64,000 bases of DNA, taken from the NCBI GenBank assembly GCA_017962375.1, contig JAGCVJ010000011.1, positions 1-64,000 on the forward strand. The letters are read 5' to 3'. Below the pieces are notes generated by a model that was not told the DNA's origin, searched no databases, and saw only the letters and a program-made list of their open reading frames with translations. Source of the DNA: Bacteroidales bacterium (GTDB taxonomy: Bacteria; Bacteroidota; Bacteroidia; Bacteroidales; UBA932). Position numbers and translations under genes: made by a program. Shown here piece after piece: positions 1,959 through 61,825 of the stretch. Numbering within the stretch: the first letter of the stretch is position 1; the number at the start of each line of letters is the position of its first letter.

Positions 1959-3929
1959 ATGAAACGATTTTCTGCTCTAAAGAGACTATGTCTCTTCTCA
2001 GCGATGCTTTTGTTTGGCATGGCTATCACGACATCCTGTGACAGCGATTCCGATGTTCCGGTTACCGGAGTTACCCTGTCCGAGACAACGATTTCAATTG
2101 TAAAAGGCTCCACCAAAACCCTGACGGCAAATGTAATGCCTTCAAACGCGTCTAACCAGGCCGTTATCTGGTATACTACAGATCCTTCTGTTGTCACCGT
2201 TGAAGATGGTCAGGTACATGGAGTAGGTGTAGGAGGAGCCTACATTATTGTGTTTACGGCGGAAGGAAAAAAGAAAGCCGAATGCAAGGTCTTTGTTACT
2301 CCGGATTTCATTAAGGTTAAATCTGTAAAACTTGACAAGACTAGTCTTGAGCTGGTGGAAGAGGAAACTGCTACCTTGACAGCTACAGTAGAGCCAGACA
2401 ATGCTACGGACCCGAGTGTTATCTGGACCTCCAGCAACTCTTCAGTTGCAAAGGTATCTGACGGAACGGTTACTGCGGTTGCTGCCGGAGAGGCAACAAT
2501 CACTGTCACCACCAATAACGGCGGCTATTCAGCCAGCTGCAACGTAACTGTTGAGCCAAAGGTTATCCACGTTGAAAGTGTTACCCTGCTTGAGACTTCT
2601 GCTGAAGGGTATGTCGGACAAACAATAGATCTTCATGCTGTTGTATCTCCTGGTGATGCTACGGACAAGTCTATTACCTGGGAAAGCAGCGCACCTGAAA
2701 TTGCTTCAGTAGAAGCCACCAGTGAAACTGATGCAACAGTCAATCTTCTTGCGGAAGGAGAGGCAACGATAACAGTTAAGAGTGTGGACGGGGAACACAC
2801 TGATACCTGCCCGATTACAGTTAAGCCAAAGCCGGGTGTTGAATATCGCAAGATCTCTCTGGTCAAACGTCCTGATATGCTGGAGCCAAAGAGCGACTTC
2901 TCAATGTTTTGGGCAAATAACGAGCTTGTAGTTGCGGGAGGGCATACTACAGGATTCAAAATTTCAAAAGAAGCCGAGTACTGGGGCACCGACGGTGTAT
3001 GGCGCAGCATGACAATGAATTATGCTCATGACTTCCCGTTCGGCCTTATGCTGTCTGACGGCAAGTTTATGATAGGCGGCGGCGCCAGCAGCGATTCCGG
3101 CGTGGGCCAGAGTGCTGGTGTGGAAACATACGATCCATCTACCCACACTTTTACCAAAATTAATGATATGACCACTGCACGTCTTATGGCTCGTGCCATT
3201 CAGCTTGAAAACGGAAACGTGGTGGTTGCAGGAAACTGGTATGGTCTGCCTAACCTGGAGATTTTCAACGCATCAACCAACGTTTGGCAGAACGTTCGCG
3301 CTTTGTCCACCAGCTATTATATGCCATACGTTTTCAGGACCGGAAAGAACGAGGCAATAATTTTCAACAATCAGGCTGCCCAGATAGAAGTGTTCAACGG
3401 AGAGGATGTATATACCGAGAATCCAAGCATTTTGAACACTTGGAAGCCTATCTTCCCTGGATCCAACCTGACAATGCCTGATTTTCTGATCGGCGATTTT
3501 GCAACGGATGACTACACATATCTGATAGCAGCTGAAAATTCCGAGGGAAAGATAGGACTTCTCCTTGTCAACGGAAGGAATTTCTCTTTGGTTGATACCG
3601 ATAATGATTTTCCTGCCGAATTCAATTCAGAGAAACTGACTTTCACTGGCCCTATCGTTGACAGAAACAGGAATATGGCCTATCTGGTGGCCTCCAATAC
3701 CGGGAGCGAAGTATTTTATGTTTTCTACCTCATAGATCTTTCTGAAGTGAAAACTACTGGAAAGGCCCCAGTGCTGGTGGCCTACTATACAGATCCTATG
3801 ACCGACTGCGCTCCGGCAGCAAGTGCATCCATGGCCCTGAGCCCGACCGGAATGTTAGCGATTGCCGGTGGTATCTACAACAGCAACTACGCTCCGTTCA
3901 AGACTGTTTACACTCTTAAGATATATTAG
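1959..3929 (+). CDS. Lipoprotein with three BIG2 (Ig-like) domains and a C-terminal beta-propeller-like region
   Basis: The signal peptide ends in a lipobox with Cys27 (MAITTSC), followed by DSDSD, an acidic stretch consistent with surface export of Bacteroidota lipoproteins. Three bacterial Ig-like group 2 domains follow at about 36-115, 121-198 and 203-290, each with the VTLxxT/S...G...TLTA...VxPxNA...W.SS...VA.V...G.V.A...G.ATI.V pattern. Residues from about 295 to 656 have repeated GG and W/Y motifs (VVAGGHTTGF, MIGGGASSDS, VETYDPSTHTFTKI, NVVVAGNWYG), as in kelch-type propellers. A role in adhesion or glycan binding at the cell surface is inference. The gene ends at a shared bidirectional terminator facing the serine operon. 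Confidence 0.82.
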   Translation: MKRFSALKRLCLFSAMLLFGMAITTSCDSDSDVPVTGVTLSETTISIVKGSTKTLTANVMPSNASNQAVIWYTTDPSVVTVEDGQVHGVGVGGAYIIVFTAEGKKKAECKVFVTPDFIKVKSVKLDKTSLELVEEETATLTATVEPDNATDPSVIWTSSNSSVAKVSDGTVTAVAAGEATITVTTNNGGYSASCNVTVEPKVIHVESVTLLETSAEGYVGQTIDLHAVVSPGDATDKSITWESSAPEIASVEATSETDATVNLLAEGEATITVKSVDGEHTDTCPITVKPKPGVEYRKISLVKRPDMLEPKSDFSMFWANNELVVAGGHTTGFKISKEAEYWGTDGVWRSMTMNYAHDFPFGLMLSDGKFMIGGGASSDSGVGQSAGVETYDPSTHTFTKINDMTTARLMARAIQLENGNVVVAGNWYGLPNLEIFNASTNVWQNVRALSTSYYMPYVFRTGKNEAIIFNNQAAQIEVFNGEDVYTENPSILNTWKPIFPGSNLTMPDFLIGDFATDDYTYLIAAENSEGKIGLLLVNGRNFSLVDTDNDFPAEFNSEKLTFTGPIVDRNRNMAYLVASNTGSEVFYVFYLIDLSEVKTTGKAPVLVAYYTDPMTDCAPAASASMALSPTGMLAIAGGIYNSNYAPFKTVYTLKIY

Positions 3930-3963
3930 GATACTGCGCCGGATTTAAGCCGGTGAAAACAAA

Positions 3964-3997
3964 ACGGGATGCCAAATATTTTGGCATCCCGTTTTTC
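3964..3997. terminator. Bidirectional terminator
   Basis: A perfect inverted repeat, ACGGGATGCCAAA / TTTGGCATCCCGT apart from the central bases, with A-tract on the left and T-tract on the right. It serves both the BIG2 gene (plus) and the serine operon (minus). Confidence 0.88.
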
Positions 3998-4014
3998 TTG
4001 TTTGGCAATCAGGC

Positions 4015-5268
4015 TTACTTCTTGAAGTCAGAGAGGGAGTGGATGGTGATTCCGCTTCTTAGCTTAGGCTCGAACCAGGTAGTCTTAGGAGGCATGATAT
4101 TGCCTGTGTCAGCGATGGTTATGAGCTGGCGCATAGAAACAGGATAGAGGGCGAAAGCCGCAGCCATCTCTCCTGAGTCAACTCTCTTCTTGAGCTCGCC
4201 GAGGCCTCTGATTCCGCCAACGAAATCTATCCTCTTGGAGGTCCTGAGGTCTTTGATGTCCAAAAGCTTGTCGGCGATAAAGTCTGAGAACACAGAAACG
4301 TCCAGAACCTTGATAGGGTCGTTGTCGTCGTATGTTCCGGCTTTTGCGGTAAGAGAGTACCAATCTCCGCCGATGTACATTGAGAAGTTGTGGAGCCCGG
4401 AAGGATGATAGATTTCCTTTCCCTTCTTCTCAACGGTGAAGAATTCGCCGAGCTTTGAGATGAACTCATCCTGGCTCATTCCGTTCAGATCCTTTACAAC
4501 GCGGTTGTAGTCTATGATCTTGAGCTGGCTTTCAGGGAATACAACAGCCATGAAGTAGTTGTACTCCTCCTTTCCGGTATGGTTAGGGTTCTGGGCTTTC
4601 TTCTCTGCTCCCACTCTTCCTGCGGCGGCTGTACGGTGGTGTCCGTCAGCTACATAGAAAGCAGGGATTGTGGAGAAGATTTCCGTGATGCGCTCGATGG
4701 TTGCATCGTCGTCGATGATCCACATCGTGTGGCCGAATCCGTCTTCTGCCACGAAGTCATACTCAGGAGCCTTGGTCTTTACAACGTTTTCAACGATGGC
4801 GTTGATTTCAGCGTTGTCTGGATAGGCGAAGAATACGGGCTCGATGTTGGCGTTCTGGATCCTTACGTGAATCATTCGGTCATCTTCCTTCTCCTTGCGG
4901 GTAAGCTCGTGCTTCTTGATGGCGCCGCTGGTGTAGTCGTCTGTGTTGGCGCACACTACAAGGCCGTACTGGGTTCTTCCGTCCATAGTCTGGGCGTAAA
5001 CATAGTACTGCTCTTTGTTGTCCTGTACCAGCCAGCCTTTCTCCTGCCATTTCTTGAAGTTCTCCACGGCCTTGTCGTAGGTCTTCTGCTCGTGCTCGTC
5101 AGCGATAGGATCGAAGTCGATCTCAGGCTTGATTATGTGAAGCAGAGACTTTTCTCCGGCCTCGGCCTTGGCTTCCTTGGAGTTGAGTACGTCGTAAGGG
5201 CGAGAAGCCACTTCCTTCACGATTTCTTTTGGCGGACGTATTGCCGCAAACGGTTTAACTTTTACCAT
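4015..5268 (-). CDS. DUF1015 family protein of the serine operon
   Basis: A 417-residue cytoplasmic protein of the DUF1015 family, recognised from SRPYDV at 22-27, the KHELTR..KEDDR block at 120-131 and the invariant DGHHR at 208-212 (VADGHHRTAAAGR). It is the third gene of serC-serA-DUF1015 on the minus strand, only 3 nt after serA. Its biochemical role is not settled as far as I know. The DGHHR block resembles the nucleotide-binding motif of ParB/sulfiredoxin-fold proteins, a fold that includes the archaeal free-serine kinase SerK. With the gene context, this suggests an activity in serine or phosphoserine metabolism, which is inference. No serB phosphoserine phosphatase gene is seen in the window. 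Confidence 0.85.
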   Translation of the reverse strand: MVKVKPFAAIRPPKEIVKEVASRPYDVLNSKEAKAEAGEKSLLHIIKPEIDFDPIADEHEQKTYDKAVENFKKWQEKGWLVQDNKEQYYVYAQTMDGRTQYGLVVCANTDDYTSGAIKKHELTRKEKEDDRMIHVRIQNANIEPVFFAYPDNAEINAIVENVVKTKAPEYDFVAEDGFGHTMWIIDDDATIERITEIFSTIPAFYVADGHHRTAAAGRVGAEKKAQNPNHTGKEEYNYFMAVVFPESQLKIIDYNRVVKDLNGMSQDEFISKLGEFFTVEKKGKEIYHPSGLHNFSMYIGGDWYSLTAKAGTYDDNDPIKVLDVSVFSDFIADKLLDIKDLRTSKRIDFVGGIRGLGELKKRVDSGEMAAAFALYPVSMRQLITIADTGNIMPPKTTWFEPKLRSGITIHSLSDFKK

Positions 5269-12994: not shown

Positions 12995-13849
12995 TTACAG
13001 ATACTGCGCCAGGCGTTTTTTGATTCTCGGGCTGGACAGGGTTCTAAGGGCTCTGGTCTTGATCTGGCGCACTCTTTCCCTTGTAAGGTCCATGTTCTCG
13101 CCGATTTCCTCCAGAGTCATCTGAGGGCATCCTATGCCGAAGCTTGAGACCAGAACCTGCCTTTCTCTCTCTCCGAGCACCTGCATCACTTCCTCCAGGT
13201 CTTTCAGGAGTGATTCCCTGATAAGCTTGCCGTCCACCTGGGGAGCCTGGGTGTCTGCCACCACATCTTCCAGAGTCTGGCTGTCGTCGTCTCCCAGGGG
13301 CTTGCTCAGAGAAACGGTGGCGTTCTGGGCAAGGGGCAGGTCGCTGATTTTGGAAATGTCCGTTTCCATAATGGCGGCCAGCTCCTCGTCCGTTGGCTCT
13401 CTCTCGTACTCCTGGATGAAGGCCTGCCTTTTCTTGCTGGCCTTTATCTGAAGACCCACCTGGTTCATAGGCAGGCGGATGGTGTTTGAGTCCTGGGAGA
13501 TTCCGCTCAGAATCTGCTGGCGGATCCACCATACGGCGTAGGATATAAATTTGAATCCTCTTGTGGGGTCGAATTTTTTTGCGGCCTTGATCAGGCCTAT
13601 GTTGCCTTCGCTGATCAGGTCCGTGAGCTCAAGCCCGCGGTTCTGGTACTGTTTTGCAACCGATACCACGAACCTTAGGTTTGCCTCGACAAGTGAGTTC
13701 AGCGCCTGGCCGTCTCCTTCCTTTATCCTCATTGCCAGCTCTGTCTCCTGGTCCGGTCCTATCATCTCAATTCGGCTGATGTCTCTCATATACTGTTCAA
13801 GTGTATGAGTCCTGACCGTTATGCACGGTGTAATTTTAATTTGTTCCAT
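12995..13849 (-). CDS. rpoD: Primary sigma factor RpoD (short Bacteroidota type)
   Basis: At 284 residues this is the short sigma-A typical of Bacteroidota, lacking the long non-conserved insert of proteobacterial RpoD. Regions in order: 1.2 (TLEQYMRDISRIEMIGPDQE), 2 (ANLRFVVSVAKQYQNRGLELTDLISEGNIGLIKAAKKFDPTRGFKFISYAVWWIRQQI split over region 2.1-2.4), 3 (about 130-200) and 4.2 (MTLEEIGENMDLTRERVRQIKTRALRTL). It directs RNA polymerase to the TTTG / TAnnTTTG promoters seen throughout this window. The gene is single and divergent from the AAA/MoxR/VWA cassette. Confidence 0.96.
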   Translation of the reverse strand: MEQIKITPCITVRTHTLEQYMRDISRIEMIGPDQETELAMRIKEGDGQALNSLVEANLRFVVSVAKQYQNRGLELTDLISEGNIGLIKAAKKFDPTRGFKFISYAVWWIRQQILSGISQDSNTIRLPMNQVGLQIKASKKRQAFIQEYEREPTDEELAAIMETDISKISDLPLAQNATVSLSKPLGDDDSQTLEDVVADTQAPQVDGKLIRESLLKDLEEVMQVLGERERQVLVSSFGIGCPQMTLEEIGENMDLTRERVRQIKTRALRTLSSPRIKKRLAQYL

Positions 13850-13999
13850 AAGTAAATATTGAATGTTGGTTCAATCACATATACGTTGATCTTTTGGTTT
13901 TATTTCACATCGCGATGAAAATTTTTCTGGCATCGGAGTGTAATATTCGACGAAAAAGGCAGTATATCTCTTCGCGAACAAGTCAAAACAGAAGAAAAT

Positions 14000-15751: not shown

Positions 15752-16834
15752 ATGGCAAATATCAACATAAACACGGTCGAGCTGATTCAGTTGCTCGACA
15801 TCACTCCTGCCTCGCATAATATAATGCTTGTAGGCAGACACGGAATCGGTAAATCGGAGATTCTGACAGACTATTTCAGGAACAAGGGGATGGACGTGGT
15901 GGCTCTTTTTCTGGGCCAGATGTCCGATCCGGGAGACTTGATAGGAATTCCTAACAAGAACGAGAAAACCGGCAAGACAGACTTCATGCCGCCTTACTGG
16001 TTCCCTTTGGACGGGAAACCTATAGTGCTTTTTCTGGACGAGCTGAACAGGGCGCGTCCCGAGATACTGCAGACTATTATGGACCTTGCGCTGAACCGCA
16101 AGCTGGCGGGGCGAAGCCTTCCGGAGGGCAGCCGCATCATCAGCGCCGTGAACGCGGGTGACCAGTACCAGCTGACGGATCTGGACCCTGCGCTTGTGAG
16201 CCGTTTCAACATAGTGAACTTCACTCCTACAACTCAGGAGTGGCTGCTCTGGGCCAGGAAAGCGGGCGTGGACAGCAGGGTGATAGACTTTATCCAGGAA
16301 AATCCGGTGTGGCTGGACAAGGATCCTGACTCCAGGGAGGGGGTGGACACAGGACTTGACAAGACTCCCGACCGCAGAGCCTGGAAAAGAGTTTCGGACA
16401 TCATTTCAGGAATGGAGAGGCTCCAAGACGCGGCAAAGGCCATTTCGTGCATTGTGGGCGCCAGGGCTGCAAGTGCTTTCCTCAGCAGCGCTTCTGCAAA
16501 CAAGTTGCTCTCCGCCAGGGAGATACTGATGAACTTCCCTAAGGTTAAGGAAAAGTTGGACAAGTACGAGCTGCACAACCTTTCTGTTATCAACGACAGC
16601 CTTTACCGCTTTCTTGAGATAGAGACTGTTCAGGAGAAAGACAAGGAGACTGTTGCCGGAAATCTGGAGGCATACTTCGATTATCTGGCAAAAGACAAGA
16701 AAGAGGCGGCAGCACACTTCGCGAATCTGTATATGCAGAAAACCTATCCTTCGGCAGTGAGCTTCATCGCCAGGGAGTGCAGGATGCTTACAATGTCGAT
16801 GATTATTTACGTTCAGGGCATTAACGCGGCATGA
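15752..16834 (+). CDS. MoxR-like AAA+ ATPase
   Basis: A 360-residue ATPase of the MoxR/CbbQ group. Walker A is GRHGIGKS (about 28-35) and Walker B LFLDELNRA (about 91-99). Sensor-1 lies in ISAVNAGDQYQL, followed by the arginine finger in LVSRFNIV. MoxR ATPases act as chaperones that insert metals or remodel partner complexes and are nearly always encoded beside a VWA protein. Here the VWA gene follows with a 4-nt overlap (ATGA), strong evidence of a functional pair. The C-terminal 100 residues are helical. Confidence 0.88.
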   Translation: MANININTVELIQLLDITPASHNIMLVGRHGIGKSEILTDYFRNKGMDVVALFLGQMSDPGDLIGIPNKNEKTGKTDFMPPYWFPLDGKPIVLFLDELNRARPEILQTIMDLALNRKLAGRSLPEGSRIISAVNAGDQYQLTDLDPALVSRFNIVNFTPTTQEWLLWARKAGVDSRVIDFIQENPVWLDKDPDSREGVDTGLDKTPDRRAWKRVSDIISGMERLQDAAKAISCIVGARAASAFLSSASANKLLSAREILMNFPKVKEKLDKYELHNLSVINDSLYRFLEIETVQEKDKETVAGNLEAYFDYLAKDKKEAAAHFANLYMQKTYPSAVSFIARECRMLTMSMIIYVQGINAA

Positions 16835-17970
16835 CAATAAAAGACAAGATAACCAAGATATTGCAGAAGTGGTATCTGCTTGAGCCTCCGATGTTCAGGG
16901 TGCTTTGCGTTCACGATATCTGCGAGAACAAGTCTATCCGCTGCCCCGTCAGGTGCGGCAGCGGGAGGCTTGAATACAATCCACAGCTTGTGGCCCAGAT
17001 GGAGGACCAGGGGCTGGAGCATGCCCTTAGGGCTGAGGCGGTGAGGATCCTGCTCAAGCATCCTTACCAGAGAAAGCCGGAGGGCTGTTCGCAGCAGGCG
17101 GTTTCTGTGGGCTCCAACCTGGTGATTTCGGACAACTACATTAACTCGGCCTTCCAACTGGACTCTCCCAAAGACTACGAGCTGCCGGGAGGGATGGCCT
17201 ACGAGTGGTATTCCAGGCAGATAGAATCCAGGCTGGACGGCCCGAAATCCGGCGGGGGAGGAGAGGGCGGAGGCTCAGACAAGCTTTCCTCAAAGGCGGA
17301 CAGCAACCGCGACCTTTCGGAGCTTTGGGGTGAGGACGAGCTTCAGGTGGCTGTGATAAACGGAATAATAAACGGCTGCGAATCCTGGGGAAGCCTGCCG
17401 GGCAACTTTGTGGAGAAACTCAAAGCCTCCACCAAGGCAAAAATCAACTGGAGGAATATCTTCAACGGCTTCAGGGCCAGCATCCTATCTTCAAAGCGCA
17501 AGTTGACCAGGATGAAGCCCAACCGCAGAACCGGTTTTGATAATATGGGCTCGATCCGCCGTTTCAACACCAAGGTGCTTGTGGCGGTGGACGTGAGCGG
17601 ATCCATAACTTCCCAGAGCCTGAGCTATTTCTACGGGGTGGTGAACAGCGCTTTCCGCTACGGCTTCGAGACTGTGGACCTGATTCAGTTCGACAGCGGA
17701 ATCAGGGTGGTGCAGAGCCTAAGGAAAGCGGTAAAGGAAACGGCGGTGCTGGGCAGAGGCGGCACCAATTTCCAGGAACCCATAGACTACGCCCACCAGA
17801 ACGGATACGACGGGCTTGTGATTCTGACCGACGGATACGCCCCTAGTCCTTCTATTCCGCAGGGGATGAGGTGCAAGATAATCTGGGTTTGCCAGGACAG
17901 GCAGTGCTACGAAAGGCACCACCAGTGGATGGAAAAGAGCGGAAGAGTCTGCACAATAGAATTGAAATAA
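16831..17970 (+). CDS. DUF2201-type protein with C-terminal VWA domain
   Basis: A 379-residue partner of the MoxR ATPase. The C-terminal von Willebrand A domain has a complete MIDAS site: DVSGS (about 252-256), Thr in GRGGTNFQEPI and Asp in ILTDGYAP. The N-terminal part resembles the putative metallopeptidase domain of DUF2201, but the expected HExxH helix reads RAEAVRILLKH (about 66-76). The zinc-binding histidines are therefore lost and a peptidase role is unlikely. A Gly/Ser-rich linker (about 131-151) joins the two. Metal-dependent ligand binding by the MIDAS is the best supported activity. Confidence 0.82.
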   Translation: MTIKDKITKILQKWYLLEPPMFRVLCVHDICENKSIRCPVRCGSGRLEYNPQLVAQMEDQGLEHALRAEAVRILLKHPYQRKPEGCSQQAVSVGSNLVISDNYINSAFQLDSPKDYELPGGMAYEWYSRQIESRLDGPKSGGGGEGGGSDKLSSKADSNRDLSELWGEDELQVAVINGIINGCESWGSLPGNFVEKLKASTKAKINWRNIFNGFRASILSSKRKLTRMKPNRRTGFDNMGSIRRFNTKVLVAVDVSGSITSQSLSYFYGVVNSAFRYGFETVDLIQFDSGIRVVQSLRKAVKETAVLGRGGTNFQEPIDYAHQNGYDGLVILTDGYAPSPSIPQGMRCKIIWVCQDRQCYERHHQWMEKSGRVCTIELK

Positions 17971-53670: not shown

Positions 53671-53790
53671 AGGCTATGGTGCCTTGTAACTCATTGATTT
53701 ACAGACCGCCCCTGATATTACCCACCCTTAATCGCTGGGTAATATTTGGGGCATCTTGATACTCAGCCACTTACAAAGCACCATAGCCCC
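53671..53790. repeat. 120-bp MITE-like palindromic element, copy B
   Basis: Starts AGGCTATGGTGCCTTGTAAC, contains the central hairpin GATATTACCCA / TGGGTAATATT and ends CTTACAAAGCACCATAGCCCC. It lies between the lipoprotein gene and the convergent antitoxin gene, where it may also act as a terminator for both. Confidence 0.85.
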
Positions 53791-54591: not shown

Positions 54592-54684
54592 AACATAAAA
54601 GTTAATAATTCAAACTCTTTTCTCTCAAATATACATGTCGAAATGCATGAATCTAATGCTCAGGATAACTTTCCCCATCACTTT

Positions 54685-54706
54685 TTTACGATCGTACGAT
54701 TGTAAA
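54685..54706. repeat. Palindromic motif TTTACrATCGTACGATTGTAAA, site 1
   Basis: A 22-bp imperfect palindrome preceded by CACTTT. Related sites lie at 56436-56454 and 56697-56718. It lies between the divergent toxin promoter and the promoter at 54773. Confidence 0.65.
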
Positions 54707-54744
54707 TGAATGCGTAAAACACAATTTTTGCGGACAGTCGCTTC

Positions 54745-54961: not shown

Positions 54962-54973
54962 GGCTATGGTGTC
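54962..54973 (+). repeat. Solo end of the MITE-like element
   Basis: GGCTATGGTGTC matches the left end of the 120-bp element but is followed directly by the hairpin at 54985-55015 and not by the rest of the element. Confidence 0.55.
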
Positions 54974-54984
54974 ACCAATGGAAT

Positions 54985-55015
54985 GAAAATCGTCCACAAC
55001 TTGTGGATGATTTTC
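54985..55015. repeat. Hairpin AAAATCGTCCACAA.TTGTGGATGATTTT (ATCGTC palindrome)
   Basis: An inverted repeat of about 15 bp with one mismatch. The same family occurs at 56474-56500 and, inside the DUF1016 coding sequence, at 56029-56057. In both flanking copies it is followed by the spacer AATAGGG..GAAGTGCTA and then the 120-bp element. Confidence 0.8.
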
Positions 55016-55032
55016 AATAGGGCAGAAGTGCT

Positions 55033-55152
55033 AGGCTATGGTGTCTTGCAATCAGCTGATACTCAAGCCTTCCCTAATATTACTATCATCTTTTCGCAGG
55101 GTGATATTTGGGGCATCCTGATACTCAGTTACTTACAAAGCACCATAGCCCT
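55033..55152. repeat. 120-bp MITE-like palindromic element, copy C
   Basis: Starts AGGCTATGGTGTCTTGCAATC, contains GCTGATACTCA and CTGATACTCAG as internal arms and TAATATTAC / TGATATTTG around the centre, and ends TTACAAAGCACCATAGCCC. It abuts the truncated ORF6N remnant by 5 bp. Confidence 0.85.
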
Positions 55153-55157
55153 TATGT

Positions 55158-55307
55158 TCACCTTATGTTCCCCTTATCTGAACTTGATTGCCTGCATTTC
55201 GGATAAGCTGCGCGTGAAGGAAAGTAACGTGCTCCCATAATAATGGAATTGGATGTTGCAAATTGTGATATCCAATTATCAAATTCTTCTTTAGTTAGTT
55301 GAAACAT
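55158..55307 (-). pseudogene. Remnant of an ORF6N-domain gene
   Basis: The minus-strand frame reads MFQLTKEEFDNWISQF then ATSNSIIMGAR, which matches the middle of the ORF6N domain of Bacteroidota KilA-N/ORF6N regulators (usual form FMFQLTxEEFxxWxSQxxTSN..MGLRRPPYAFTEQG). After about 27 residues the similarity stops and the frame ends at codon 50. Both the start of the domain and the RxxPYAFTEQG part are missing. It is squeezed between the DUF1016 stop codon and repeat copy C, which suggests truncation by repeat insertion. Confidence 0.65.
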
Positions 55308-55311
55308 AAAG

Positions 55312-56358
55312 TTATAGTTTGGCTTTCATTTCTTCAATGGTTGGAATAGTTCCTTCGATTTTCTCAGGATACAGTTTTGCCAGCTCGTACTCAGATATTC
55401 CAATAGGTTGATTACTAGCTTCAAGAGCATATTGCGCTATCAGATTGTCTTTTTCTTTACATATCAGAAGACCTATCGTTGGATTATCCCTGCCTGACTT
55501 TCTAAGCAGGTGATTACATGCTACGACATATCCACCGAGTTGCCCAATATCTCCAAAATCCAGTTTTCCTATTTTGACTTCGATTACCACATAACAAGAC
55601 AACTTGAGGTTATAAAACAAAAGATCAAGAAATCTTTCATTGTCACCGATTTGGAGACGGTACTCTTTGCCCACATACGCAAATCCGGTACCCAGTTCAA
55701 CCAAGAACTGAGAGATGTTGTCTATCAGAGAGTTTTTAAGCTTACGTTCATTGTAGGGTTCAAGGATGCCTGTAAATGCAAAATTGTATGGATCTTTCAT
55801 TATCTCTGAAGCCAGATCGCTGTTTTCCTTGGGAAGAGTCCTTTCAAAATTCGTTAACGTATTTTGAGAACGTTTATATAAATCGGAATCAAGAAAGTTC
55901 AGCAGTGTATTCCTGCTCCAGCCATTCTCAATTATTTTCTTTACGAAAAAGATGGCTTTATTTACATCTCCATTTGTTTTATCTATTATTTGAGTATGGT
56001 GAGACCAAGGAATGTTAAATAATTGCTTAAAATCGTCAACAAGTTGTTGACGATTTTCAAAAGCCTGAGAATAAAGACAATAGAAATATTTTGCATACTT
56101 GAGGGTTGTTGGTGAAAACCCCTTGCTCAAACCTAACGATGCCTTCAAATCACGACTAAGTACATTAAAGAACCCGCTACCATATTTATTCTCGGCATCT
56201 CTTTGGACAATGTCTTTTCCGAGATCCCAATAATATCGCAGCATTTCCTGATTGACGTGGACAGCCGCTTTAATTTGTCCTCTGCGATAGCGCAAGCTTA
56301 GATCTTTGATCCACTGCAAATACTCCGGATCAACAATTCCCGTCTTCTCCATACACAT
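55312..56358 (-). CDS. DUF1016 (YhcG-like) PD-(D/E)xK nuclease family protein
   Basis: A 348-residue protein with an N-terminal DUF1016_N helical region (about 12-120, ending IPWSHHTQII) and a C-terminal PD-(D/E)xK nuclease domain. The likely catalytic residues are D245 (RFLDLLFYN), E260 and K262 (VVIEVKIG). Members are common accessory genes, often near repeats or restriction systems; their target is not known. Codons 101-110 (ENRQQLVDDF) are written as a perfect 29-bp palindrome (56029-56057) of the same family as the hairpins on both sides. A promoter lies at 56378-56385. The start may be the Met two codons later. The gene is AT-rich relative to core genes. Confidence 0.85.
   Translation of the reverse strand: MCMEKTGIVDPEYLQWIKDLSLRYRRGQIKAAVHVNQEMLRYYWDLGKDIVQRDAENKYGSGFFNVLSRDLKASLGLSKGFSPTTLKYAKYFYCLYSQAFENRQQLVDDFKQLFNIPWSHHTQIIDKTNGDVNKAIFFVKKIIENGWSRNTLLNFLDSDLYKRSQNTLTNFERTLPKENSDLASEIMKDPYNFAFTGILEPYNERKLKNSLIDNISQFLVELGTGFAYVGKEYRLQIGDNERFLDLLFYNLKLSCYVVIEVKIGKLDFGDIGQLGGYVVACNHLLRKSGRDNPTIGLLICKEKDNLIAQYALEASNQPIGISEYELAKLYPEKIEGTIPTIEEMKAKL
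56029..56057. repeat. Perfect 29-bp palindrome inside the DUF1016 gene
   Basis: Arms AAAATCGTCAACAA and TTGTTGACGATTTT around a single central base. It matches the flanking hairpins in the ATCGTCnnCAA / TTGnnGACGAT frame. It is coding and encodes NRQQLVDDFK. Confidence 0.9.
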
Positions 56359-56377
56359 CCTTCATTTTGATTTGTGG

Positions 56378-56385
56378 CAAATATA
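56378..56385 (-). promoter_or_regulatory. -7 box TATATTTG of the DUF1016 gene
   Basis: Exact TAnnTTTG on the minus strand, 19 nt before the first ATG at 56358. Confidence 0.7.
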
Positions 56386-56435
56386 ACCTCCGAAGATCTC
56401 GGCCAGCCGCCTGCTCAAACTTTACCCTTCACTTT

Positions 56436-56454
56436 TTTACAATCGTACGATTTT
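56436..56454. repeat. Palindromic motif TTTACAATCGTACGATTTT, site 2
   Basis: Second copy of the motif at 54685, again preceded by CACTTT. It lies about 50 bp upstream of the DUF1016 -7 box. Confidence 0.65.
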
Positions 56455-56473
56455 CAGGGAATATCTCAGGATC

Positions 56474-56500
56474 AAATCGTCCCCAACTTGGGGACGATTT
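56474..56500. repeat. Perfect palindrome AAATCGTCCCCAA-C-TTGGGGACGATTT
   Basis: Thirteen-base arms around one central base; the best-conserved copy of the ATCGTC palindrome family. It is followed by AATAGGGGTGAAGTGCTA and then by repeat copy D, the same order as at 54985-55152. Confidence 0.88.
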
Positions 56501-56518
56501 TAAATAGGGGTGAAGTGC

Positions 56519-56639
56519 TAGGCTATGGTGTCTTGCAACCGGCTGATACTCAGGCCCTCTCTAATATTACCCGCCCTTATTCGCGGGGTAATATTTTGGG
56601 CGCACTGATACACAGCTACTTACAAAGCACCATAGCCCC
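56519..56639. repeat. 120-bp MITE-like palindromic element, copy D
   Basis: Starts TAGGCTATGGTGTCTTGCAA, has GCTGATACTCAG and CTGATACACAGC as inner arms, a central TAATATTACCCG / CGGGGTAATATT hairpin, and ends CTTACAAAGCACCATAGCCCC. With copy C it brackets the DUF1016 gene in direct orientation. The 396 bp between the DUF1016 start and the next gene hold this, the two palindromes and promoters, and no gene. Confidence 0.88.
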
Positions 56640-56696
56640 TCGTAATTCAAGGTCACAATTTGCAACCTTAAAGACTTAAACGTTTCCCGTCCCTTT

Positions 56697-56718
56697 TTTA
56701 CAATCGTAGAATCGTAAA
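56697..56718. repeat. Palindromic motif TTTACAATCGTAGAATCGTAAA, site 3
   Basis: Third copy of the motif, lying 7 bp upstream of the -7 box at 56726 and so over the -33 region. This is the position expected of an operator. Confidence 0.65.
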
Positions 56719-56725
56719 TTTTTGC

Positions 56726-61705: not shown

Positions 61706-61825
61706 GGGGCTATGGTGTCCTGCAACTCGTTGATACTCAGCACTCTCCTAATATTACCCCTGCGAAAACAGAGGGTAATATTTCAGAGCCTCTGATACAC
61801 AGTAACTTACAAAGCACCATAGCCC
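61706..61825. repeat. 120-bp MITE-like palindromic element, copy E
   Basis: Starts GGGGCTATGGTGTCCTGCAAC, has TTGATACTCAG and CTGATACACAG arms, a central TAATATTACCCC / GGGTAATATTTC hairpin and ends CTTACAAAGCACCATAGCCC. It lies between the 109-residue gene and the small HigA-like gene. Confidence 0.88.

Follow-up and report, generated by a model that had tools for sequence, protein, structure and literature searches.

The locus and its palindromes

The window, a stretch of 64,000 nucleotides from a Bacteroidales bacterium (contig JAGCVJ010000011.1, positions 1 to 64,000), carries the following features.

55312..56358, minus strand: DUF1016/YhcG gene, 348 aa, with DUF1016_N and YhcG_C (PD-(D/E)XK) domains
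Residues 23-163 of its product: DUF1016_N domain, Pfam 113.1 bits against a cut-off of 32.8
Residues 185-338 of its product: YhcG_C (PD-(D/E)XK) domain, Pfam 189.3 bits against a cut-off of 32.5
56029..56057, minus strand: in-gene 29-bp perfect palindrome, proposed recognition site; codons 101-110, centred on the first base of codon 106
56095..56109, minus strand: codons 84-88, with T84 tracking palindrome pair 7, K87 pair 8, and Y88 pair 5
55993..56004, minus strand: codons 119-122, with S119 tracking pair 3 and T122 pair 4
55909..55914, minus strand: codons 149-150, with R149 tracking pair 3 and N150, less strongly, pair 2
56474..56500, no strand: upstream (5') flanking palindrome, perfect, about 115 nt before the ATG
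54984..55016, no strand: downstream (3') flanking palindrome, one mismatch, about 300 nt past the stop
56521..56639, no strand: 120-bp near-palindromic dispersed element beside the 5' palindrome, outside the DUF1016 system
55034..55151, no strand: 120-bp near-palindromic dispersed element beside the 3' palindrome, outside the DUF1016 system

The original prediction of a DUF1016/PD-(D/E)xK gene was borne out, both domains scoring above their Pfam cut-offs. The catalytic residues of PD-(D/E)XK are D245, E260, and K262 in the window protein; among aligned genes ungapped at these positions, the D is conserved in 173 of 174, the acidic E/D position in all 174, and the K in all 173. By its domains and its match to the PDC-S02 models of PADLOC (best E 4.4e-141), the gene is a plain member of DUF1016/YhcG (Pfam PF17761 and PF06250; COG4804; PADLOC PDC-S02), which occurs in many bacterial phyla, archaea, plasmids, phage records, and E. 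coli K-12. In the available text of Kosinski 2005 (PMC1189080), the YhcG nuclease domain is placed near archaeal Holliday-junction resolvases and YraN. The portions of the literature on the family available to us give no known function and mention neither an in-gene recognition site nor a DNA specificity, and a literature search that covered few subscription journals found nothing on a palindrome in DUF1016/YhcG.

The palindrome expected inside the gene is present and free of mismatches, with 14-bp arms and one central base, and synonymous recoding of the window gene reached it in 0 of 300 trials. A pattern of this palindrome, searched with up to three mismatches, matched three times in the window and never in 100 shuffles. 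With up to one mismatch, a search of the own genome (2.17 Mb at 87% completeness) gave exactly the three window sites, and the reversed control gave 0. When up to two mismatches were allowed, 39 genomes of the genus yielded 7 sites (controls, 0), each of which either falls inside a DUF1016 gene or is no more than about 1 kb away from one. Palindrome sites of the types searched in the genus are thus confined to DUF1016 loci, in agreement with the proposed enrichment of the ATCGTC palindrome near such genes. Scanning of viral contigs for close relatives with the window protein gave no match. A pattern of the E. coli type found 12 sites on 11 viral contigs, 4 inside DUF1016 ORFs and 8 outside; by eye, the contig that holds two of these eight (L266) resembles DUF1016 relics.

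The gene had also been described as bracketed by two copies of a compound module, a description that held in part. The repeats are real and lie in the same orientation, each palindrome being followed by a common spacer and the 120-bp element (84% identity between 54987-55151 and 56474-56638). The flanking palindromes, however, are unlike the in-gene one: the 56474 copy differs from it at pairs 4 and 5, and the 54984 copy at pairs 5 and 8. These distinguishing pairs (4, 5, and 8) are bases that co-vary with the protein; each flanking copy mismatches the protein's code at its two differing pairs, and under the residue-to-base code described below the in-gene site scored best of the three (LLR 3.88, versus 0.53 for the 56474 copy and -1.54 for the 54984 copy). 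The 120-bp element was found at 8 loci in its own genome (E <= 0.001), just 2 of which have the ATCGTC palindrome; since it is dispersed, it was rejected as a component of a DUF1016 unit. Flanking copies were likewise rejected as an essential feature, as only a minority of genes have a palindrome within 250 nt: downstream, 9 of 60 DUF1016 genes versus 13 of 290 control genes (p 0.006), and upstream, 5 of 60 versus 7 of 268 (p 0.05). Given the same downstream counts and the dispersed, unrelated 120-bp element, the repeat mobilisation that had been suggested did not gain support. We conclude that the bracketing copies are secondary, because they differ at bases that the window protein appears to read and because the 120-bp element is unrelated, and that the in-gene palindrome is the important part.

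A palindrome in one loop and one frame across the family

Palindromes were counted in two sets of DUF1016/YhcG genes (104 and 73 genes), after near-identical genes, genes shorter than 200 aa, and frames with internal stops had been dropped. Set 2 comes exclusively from the phylum of the window, and its 73 members include a truncated duplicate of another member. A palindrome of varying sequence was found in one and the same protein loop in 155 of the 177 genes (94/104 in set 1, 61/73 in set 2), compared with 1-8% in equal-sized control zones of the same genes (8/104, 2/102, and 3/87 in set 1; 3/73, 1/73, and 1/59 in set 2). Odd-length palindromes lay in one shared frame in 172 of 179 cases, with the centre at codon position 1 in 94 of 101 (set 1) and 78 of 78 (set 2); this frame pairs second codon positions with wobble positions. 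The commonest form was AATT-N7-CA-N-TG-N7'-AATT. Synonymous shuffling abolished the loop palindrome, with p <= 0.05 in 90 of the 104 set 1 genes, and the retention against synonymous change that the original prediction had called for was thereby observed. A palindrome score of at least 13 was reached by 29 of 63 distinct DUF1016 genes versus 1 of 208 other long ORFs at the same loci. Chance or codon usage as the source of the palindrome was rejected on the basis of the shuffles, the control zones, and the comparison with other ORFs.

Among the palindrome-bearing loci are ones from E. coli, a cyanobacterial plasmid, and an archaeal genome recovered from a metagenome. Copies of the palindrome multiply within the loop, and in genes with several sites pairs 1-6 agreed at 5.41 of 6 positions within a gene versus 2.99 of 6 between genes (17 pairs, 15 genes). 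Core sharing within a gene might partly stem from recent duplication. The scored loop palindrome was absent from 22 of the 177 genes, four of which (L107, L212, L075, and L049) have a palindrome with a score of at least 10 within 350 nt upstream. That of L075 is poor, and the open frame of L049 is truncated. Possible promoter-side sites lie 83 nt before the annotated start in L107 and 122 nt before the open frame in L212, the latter misfitting its own residues at pairs 7 and 8 (LLR -0.59).

Residues of the protein co-vary with single bases of the palindrome

Covariation was examined in those genes whose palindrome was odd and 17 nt or longer (85/104 in set 1, 61/73 in set 2). DUF1016_N residues outside the palindrome tracked single bases within it: residue 84 followed pair 7, 87 pair 8, 88 pair 5, 149 pair 3, and 122 pair 4. 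These five associations, noted on set 1, all ranked within 1-6 of 2,781 in the 61 new genes. Nine associations fixed in advance ranked 1, 3, 4, 5, 6, 9, 19, 38, and 930 of 2,781 in set 2, the weak ones being pair 2 with residue 150 (rank 38) and pair 2 with residue 149, which failed (rank 930). The chemistry was that of Arg or Lys with G and Glu with C. G at pair 3 went with R/K149 in 59 of 59 cases, G at pair 4 with R/K122 in 40 of 42, and G at pair 5 with R/K88 in 29 of 34. On the left arm, G at pair 7 went with R84 (55/63), G at pair 8 with K/R87 (37/41), and C at pair 8 with E/Q87 (20/24).

A test on 69 sister pairs placed residue 84 best of 307 columns for pair 7 (p 6e-6) and residue 87 best for pair 8, with residues 119 and 149 at ranks 1 and 2 for pair 3. 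Residue 88 ranked 2 for pair 5 and residue 122 ranked 6 for pair 4, other columns beating both, and the sister-pair tests of pair 2 with residues 119 and 150 were not significant. In set 1, 15 of the top 20 and 34 of the top 50 hits fell in the N-domain. The advance prediction that top hits would lie there failed in set 2, where 11 of 20 and 24 of 50 did so, which is the chance level (152 of 309 columns); the evidence from covariation therefore rests on the named pairs. A signal between pair 9 and residue 115 (rank 1 or 2) was set aside, since the palindrome encodes residue 115 in short-loop genes. The sister pairs, the second gene set, and the low-identity genes reduce, without excluding entirely, a phylogenetic artefact.

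When a code was trained on set 1 and applied to the 61 new genes, 47 of them had their own site among the top 5%, as did 25 of the 33 that were less than 60% identical to any training gene, none of these being below 45%. The median percentile of the own site was 0.026, versus 0.252 (mean) and 0.103 (best) over 200 draws of random columns. At pair 7, the second and third in-gene sites of E. coli fit the code poorly. For the genes examined, these computations demonstrate that the loop palindrome is constrained at the DNA level, is fixed in position and frame, and co-varies with the protein.

A proposed model of self-recognition

Because the residue-base covariation replicates and the code predicts own sites, a dimer of the DUF1016/YhcG protein very probably binds to the palindrome inside the gene that encodes it. 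Most DUF1016/YhcG genes examined appear to carry a site of the enzyme that they encode, through which the enzyme would recognise its own gene. The self-recognition put forward in the original prediction thus gained strong support from covariation that was replicated in a second gene set.

We propose that DUF1016/YhcG may be a homodimeric, sequence-specific DNA-binding nuclease whose site is a dyad of about 27 bp within its own gene. Each half-site would be read by DUF1016_N, with residue 84 reading pair 7, 87 pair 8, 88 pair 5, 122 pair 4, residues 149 and 119 pair 3, and residue 150 perhaps pair 2. Site and protein would diversify jointly, so that each lineage recognises its own gene. A dimer on the in-gene site or sites, and at some loci also just upstream or downstream, would block transcription without cutting. 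Such negative autoregulation would restrain a potentially harmful nuclease, and the gene would arrive in any host with its operator already inside it. What we infer is that the protein physically binds the site, dimerises, and represses the gene, as well as how cleavage is controlled; autoregulation at the DNA level is the outcome of the predicted binding that we favour. The model as a whole, in which a homodimeric nuclease binds a self-site that co-diversifies with the protein and probably regulates itself negatively, seems to us reasonably probable. A helix-turn-helix may be present, judging from the appearance of the sequence and a single sub-threshold ParB-HTH hit (E 0.13); PDB searches returned nothing significant (none up to E 1 in one, best E 0.04 in another).

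Alternative explanations

The palindrome could instead act in the mRNA, as a hairpin bound by the protein or a host factor that tunes translation or decay. Any palindrome of this kind is able to fold when transcribed, with CA-N-TG at its centre as a potential loop. However, mismatches at pairs 3-9 comprised 26 A.C and 13 G.T of 53, with no preference for G.U. A hairpin whose loop was a single base would be unable to form the innermost pairs, 1 and 2, and these stay complementary in 79% and 92% of cases (58% and 54% when shuffled). The base code fits a DNA dyad. The RNA-level action allowed for in the original prediction is disfavoured on these grounds, and we consider it quite improbable. That the palindrome is a selfish repeat in coding sequence, similar to Rickettsia palindromic elements and with no function for the nuclease, is scarcely credible: copies do multiply in the loop, and in L131 a 53-nt coding piece around the palindrome is duplicated 0.7 kb downstream, but the palindrome keeps to a single gene family, protein position, and frame from archaeal to E. 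coli loci, its bases co-vary with residues, and it is not dispersed in its own genome.

If the gene spread by homing, the nuclease would cut a lone palindrome in gene-free chromosomes and the gene would be copied in by repair. The target palindrome is present in the two gene-free E. coli strains examined; yet it is absent from the syntenic gene-free locus L129, and the lone site may be a mere deletion product, because in K-12 a site stands on both sides of gltF-yhcG. Moreover, the own allele of a homing nuclease should be without an intact target, whereas the donor gene here holds an intact site, which a homing enzyme would cut. We regard homing as unlikely. The nuclease might also serve in defence: its own sites would keep it inactive, and infection would either release it or direct it against incoming DNA that has the same site. 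PADLOC lists the family as a phage-defence candidate (PDC-S02), the window-type site is limited to DUF1016 loci, and paralogs of one genome have no common core, since among 63 pairs from 26 genomes the one that matches at 6 or more of 7 positions is a single gene counted twice. The paralog result is, however, only suggestive (0/62 versus 128/2,863, p 0.06), and the literature search found no defence assay for DUF1016/YhcG; we give the guard role as little credence as homing. Negative autoregulation by a dimer on the in-gene DNA site remains the reading that we prefer.

Comparison with known systems

The predicted arrangement resembles I-TevI, a homing nuclease that binds a site at its own locus, cleaves that site some 100-fold less than the homing site, and lowers its own expression (available text of PMC2988022), although in DUF1016 recognition is predicted from covariation and repression would follow from it. 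I-TevI differs in being a GIY-YIG enzyme with an operator that lies upstream of the ORF, where it overlaps the promoter, and outside the coding sequence. The available text of PMC2988022 describes no family-wide site that co-diversifies. REP/RAYT systems and CGTC-tagged REPs likewise have palindromes that flank the gene of a DNA-cleaving enzyme (available text of PMC3733652), but REPs are dispersed and high-copy and RAYT is a Y1 tyrosine transposase, whereas the gene in the window encodes a PD-(D/E)XK enzyme and its genome of 2.17 Mb contains 3 sites, each of them at that gene. Rickettsia palindromic elements are also palindromic DNA read in frame inside protein (available text of PMC4316617); their insertion sites include intergenic regions, RNA genes, and a variety of coding sequences, while the DUF1016 palindromes keep to one family and one position and co-vary with the protein.

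Implications

DUF1016/YhcG hereby gains predictions of its DNA target and of its contact residues, together with a first recognition code, a residue-to-base code that can be read from sequence alone. We know of no other nuclease family with a recognition site inside its own coding sequence in which second codon positions pair with wobble positions. The novelty lies in this in-gene arrangement; simple autorepression as its outcome would have precedents such as I-TevI. More tentatively, these may be self-addressed nuclease genes, whose coding sequence would hold the address that the enzyme reads and which would have co-diversified into many mutually blind types, the action of each enzyme being limited to its own lineage. 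Self-repression, conversion or exclusion of alleles with the same address, and entry into lone addresses would then all be conceivable, and the gene itself might keep its enzyme inactive until that address disappears or turns up on invading DNA. The finding bears on how a portable nuclease gene spares each new host from harm.

Palindromes at the DUF1016 locus

The DUF1016/YhcG gene of the window has been proposed to lie between direct copies of a compound module, a palindrome followed by a 120-bp element, and to carry the same palindrome within its coding sequence. The features of this region are as follows.

Features of the DUF1016 locus in the window
55312-56358, minus strand: DUF1016/YhcG gene, both family domains present
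56029-56057: perfect 29-bp palindrome inside the DUF1016/YhcG gene
53671-53790: 120-bp near-palindromic dispersed element (GGGGCTATGGTG...CACCATAGCCCC)
55034-55151: copy of the 120-bp element
56521-56639: copy of the 120-bp element
61706-61825: copy of the 120-bp element

The bracketing was confirmed, a similar palindrome being present on both sides of the gene and followed each time by the element. The module itself stood only in part: the element does adjoin both flanking palindromes, but it is unrelated to the nuclease, being dispersed at 8 loci of the genome (GGGGCTATGGTG...CACCATAGCCCC, about 120 bp), and looks MITE-like. In its own genome (2.17 Mb, 87% complete) the palindrome family is confined to this locus: a search allowing at most one mismatch recovered these three sites and no others, and a reversed control pattern gave no matches. 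A second short repeat, a T run followed by a GATCGTACGATT-like inverted core, occurs in three copies around the gene (54667-54711, 56418-56462 and 56679-56723).

The in-gene palindrome across the family

DUF1016_N was present in 27 of 39 genomes in the genus search. In aligned DUF1016 genes the conserved W-x-H segment is preceded by a loop of variable length, whose DNA in nearly every gene holds one to three palindromes of differing sequence. With palindromes scored as matched pairs minus two per mismatch, 9 of 13 plasmid and phage loci had a loop palindrome of at least 9; carriers include Runella, Deinococcus, Leptolyngbya, Curtobacterium, Rhodococcus, Paraburkholderia, an Abditibacteriota bacterium and Wolbachia phage WO. 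Among the 13, the Sulfurimonas, Ilyobacter and Arthrobacter loci lacked one and that of Rhizobium was weak. A loop palindrome was also found in a Methanosarcinales metagenome genome, and E. coli K-12 yhcG has three.

We collected 104 non-redundant genes (set 1), drawn from the genus, the phylum, plasmids, phages and E. coli, and 73 further genes, one a truncated duplicate, from the window's phylum, Bacteroidota, alone (set 2). All results are sequence statistics, and many source genomes are draft or metagenome assemblies. With the loop zone defined as the 75 codons that precede the W column and a score of at least 8 required, thresholds of our own choosing, a palindrome was counted in 94/104 genes of set 1 (equal downstream zones, 8/104, 2/102 and 3/87) and 61/73 of set 2 (control zones, 3/73, 1/73 and 1/59). 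Scores of at least 13 were reached by 29 of 63 distinct DUF1016 genes versus 1 of 208 other long ORFs of the same loci. As the original prediction anticipated, the palindrome was lost on synonymous codon shuffling (p ≤0.05 in 90/104 genes of set 1). Odd palindromes were centred on codon position 1 in 94/101 cases (set 1) and 78/78 (set 2), a register in which second codon positions pair with third and which would be the cheapest one for a palindrome in coding DNA.

Contig stretch L073 carries two inverted DUF1016 ORFs about 12 kb apart (2924-4063, plus; 15886-17025, minus) that agree in length, score and loop sequence, either a real duplication or an assembly artefact. Three genomes of the phylum (G223, G251, G318) have 13-14 DUF1016_N matches each.

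The commonest centre-aligned form is AATT-N7-CA-N-TG-N7'-AATT. Counted outward from the centre, pairs 3-9 occur as several Watson-Crick types with complementarity kept, and pairs 10-13 hardly vary. Since the sites were picked as palindromic, their percent complementarity is by itself a circular measure; the control zones and residue associations are free of this circularity. The 53 mismatches at pairs 3-9 comprised 13 G.T and 26 A.C, and complementarity at pairs 1 and 2 was 79% and 92%, versus 58% and 54% after shuffling. Because G.U is not favoured and pairs 1 and 2 stay complementary, a DNA rather than an RNA site is indicated. Within multi-site genes, pairs 1-6 are alike (5.41/6 versus 2.99 between genes; 17 pairs, 15 genes), to which recent duplication may add.

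Protein residues that covary with the site

Palindrome positions were compared with protein columns by corrected mutual information. In set 1 the top matches outside the loop included residues 84, 87, 88, 119, 122, 149 and 150 (window protein numbering). Nine residue-pair associations were recorded before set 2 was collected, where they ranked, among 2,781 combinations of pair and residue, (7,84) 1, (5,88) 3, (3,149) 4, (4,122) 5, (8,87) 6, (3,119) 9, (2,119) 19, (2,150) 38 and (2,149) 930. The top matches of set 1 crowded in the N-domain (15/20, 34/50); the crowding predicted for set 2 was at chance level (11/20, 24/50), and therefore we place weight on the named associations. G is associated with Arg or Lys at pairs 3, 4 and 5 and also, for the left strand, at pairs 7 and 8; Glu or Gln goes with C at pair 8, and Val with T at pair 3 (31/36); such pairings are the chemistry of known protein-DNA contacts.

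Sister pairs (69 independent, 65 scorable for (7,84)) gave a partial phylogenetic correction. Residue 84 changed in 17/20 pairs where palindrome pair 7 had changed versus 11/45 where it had not (p 6e-6, best of 307 columns). Residue 87 was best for pair 8, and 119 and then 149 led for pair 3; residue 88 came second for pair 5 and 122 sixth for pair 4; (2,119) and (2,150) were not significant in this test. For 47/61 set-2 genes, and for 25/33 of those less than 60% identical to any training gene, a six-residue code trained on set 1 ranked the gene's own site within the top 5% among 59 sites; the median percentile was 0.026, versus 0.103 at best for 200 random-column draws. The suggestion of self-recognition was thus strengthened, and on these associations and own-site predictions, which carry the argument, the DUF1016/YhcG protein very probably recognises its own gene specifically. 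As a lead for the DUF1016_N fold, N-domain residues 126-170 at locus L074 gave a sub-threshold ParB HTH match (E 0.13).

Sites outside the gene

Flanking palindromes are enriched near DUF1016 genes, yet uncommon: within 250 nt, 9/60 genes versus 13/290 controls had one downstream (p 0.006) and 5/60 versus 7/268 upstream (p 0.05). Under the code, the window's in-gene site scored 3.88 and its flanking sites 0.53 and -1.54, the lower scores being due to pairs 4, 5 and 8. At the loci of two related species (L131 and L130), all four scored flanking sites likewise carry G at pair 5, where the genes carry T; two more palindromes of L131 were left out of the scoring. The flanking sites may be weaker sites, or they may be left over from an earlier specificity. 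In L131, 53 nt of the DUF1016 coding sequence, those surrounding the palindrome, recur 0.7 kb downstream of the gene (13834-13888), with arms changed in a compensated way and still matching. The syntenic gene-free locus L129 is without such a palindrome; it has two short ORFs, HicA/HicB-like by eye.

Scanning the genus for another type of site gave 10 sites: seven lie within DUF1016 ORFs or fragments of them, one just 3' of such an ORF or fragment, one at what resembles a remnant by eye, without an HMM match, and one is lone. At L162 (2982-3036), two different DUF1016-type palindromes stand side by side, adjoining the 3' end of a carbonic-anhydrase-like gene (by eye), and the 6-kb stretch has no DUF1016 match. 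Lone DUF1016-type palindromes outside DUF1016 ORFs were seen in the examined stretches of six viral contigs (L265, L267, L269, L270, L271, L272); in L265 two sites overlap through their AATT ends.

The K-12 yhcG locus has five sites: yhcG itself contains three, a fourth adjoins gltD and the fifth immediately follows the yhcG stop. The two gene-free E. coli strains examined retain one site only, lying between gltD and nanQ and identical over 27 bp to an in-gene site of other strains, and an O157:H7 strain has an in-frame 78-bp loss that removes two of the three in-gene sites. A 38-nt query built on the E. coli site matched 5,335 of 5,426 genomes at 1-6 places genome-wide (median 3), where one palindrome may count on both strands. 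A divergent RNA, G0-10703, is described as overlapping the yhcG 5' end by 128 bp, with an antisense role proposed (PMC7967276).

Possible roles of the proposed self-recognition

The catalytic residues are conserved in aligned, ungapped genes (D 173/174, E or D 174/174, K 173/173). The nuclease could possibly cleave a cruciform form of the site, in keeping with the placement of its domain near Holliday-junction resolvases (PMC1189080); homing and a role as a defence guard are also possible. Repression appears the most likely use, because the gene and its sites coexist without evident harm, as judged from the 3,307 E. coli genomes in which 80% or more of the K-12 yhcG query is present, and because, of the 22 genes that lack a scored in-gene site, two have a site 83-122 nt upstream. 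The upstream site at locus L212 fits its own residues poorly.

I-TevI, described as repressing itself through a site that it hardly cuts (PMC2988022), is a precedent for a self-repressing nuclease; repression by DUF1016 is proposed here from sequence. The site within the gene would serve as an operator through which the DUF1016 protein represses its own gene, a reading that fits a site that is long and confined to one locus.
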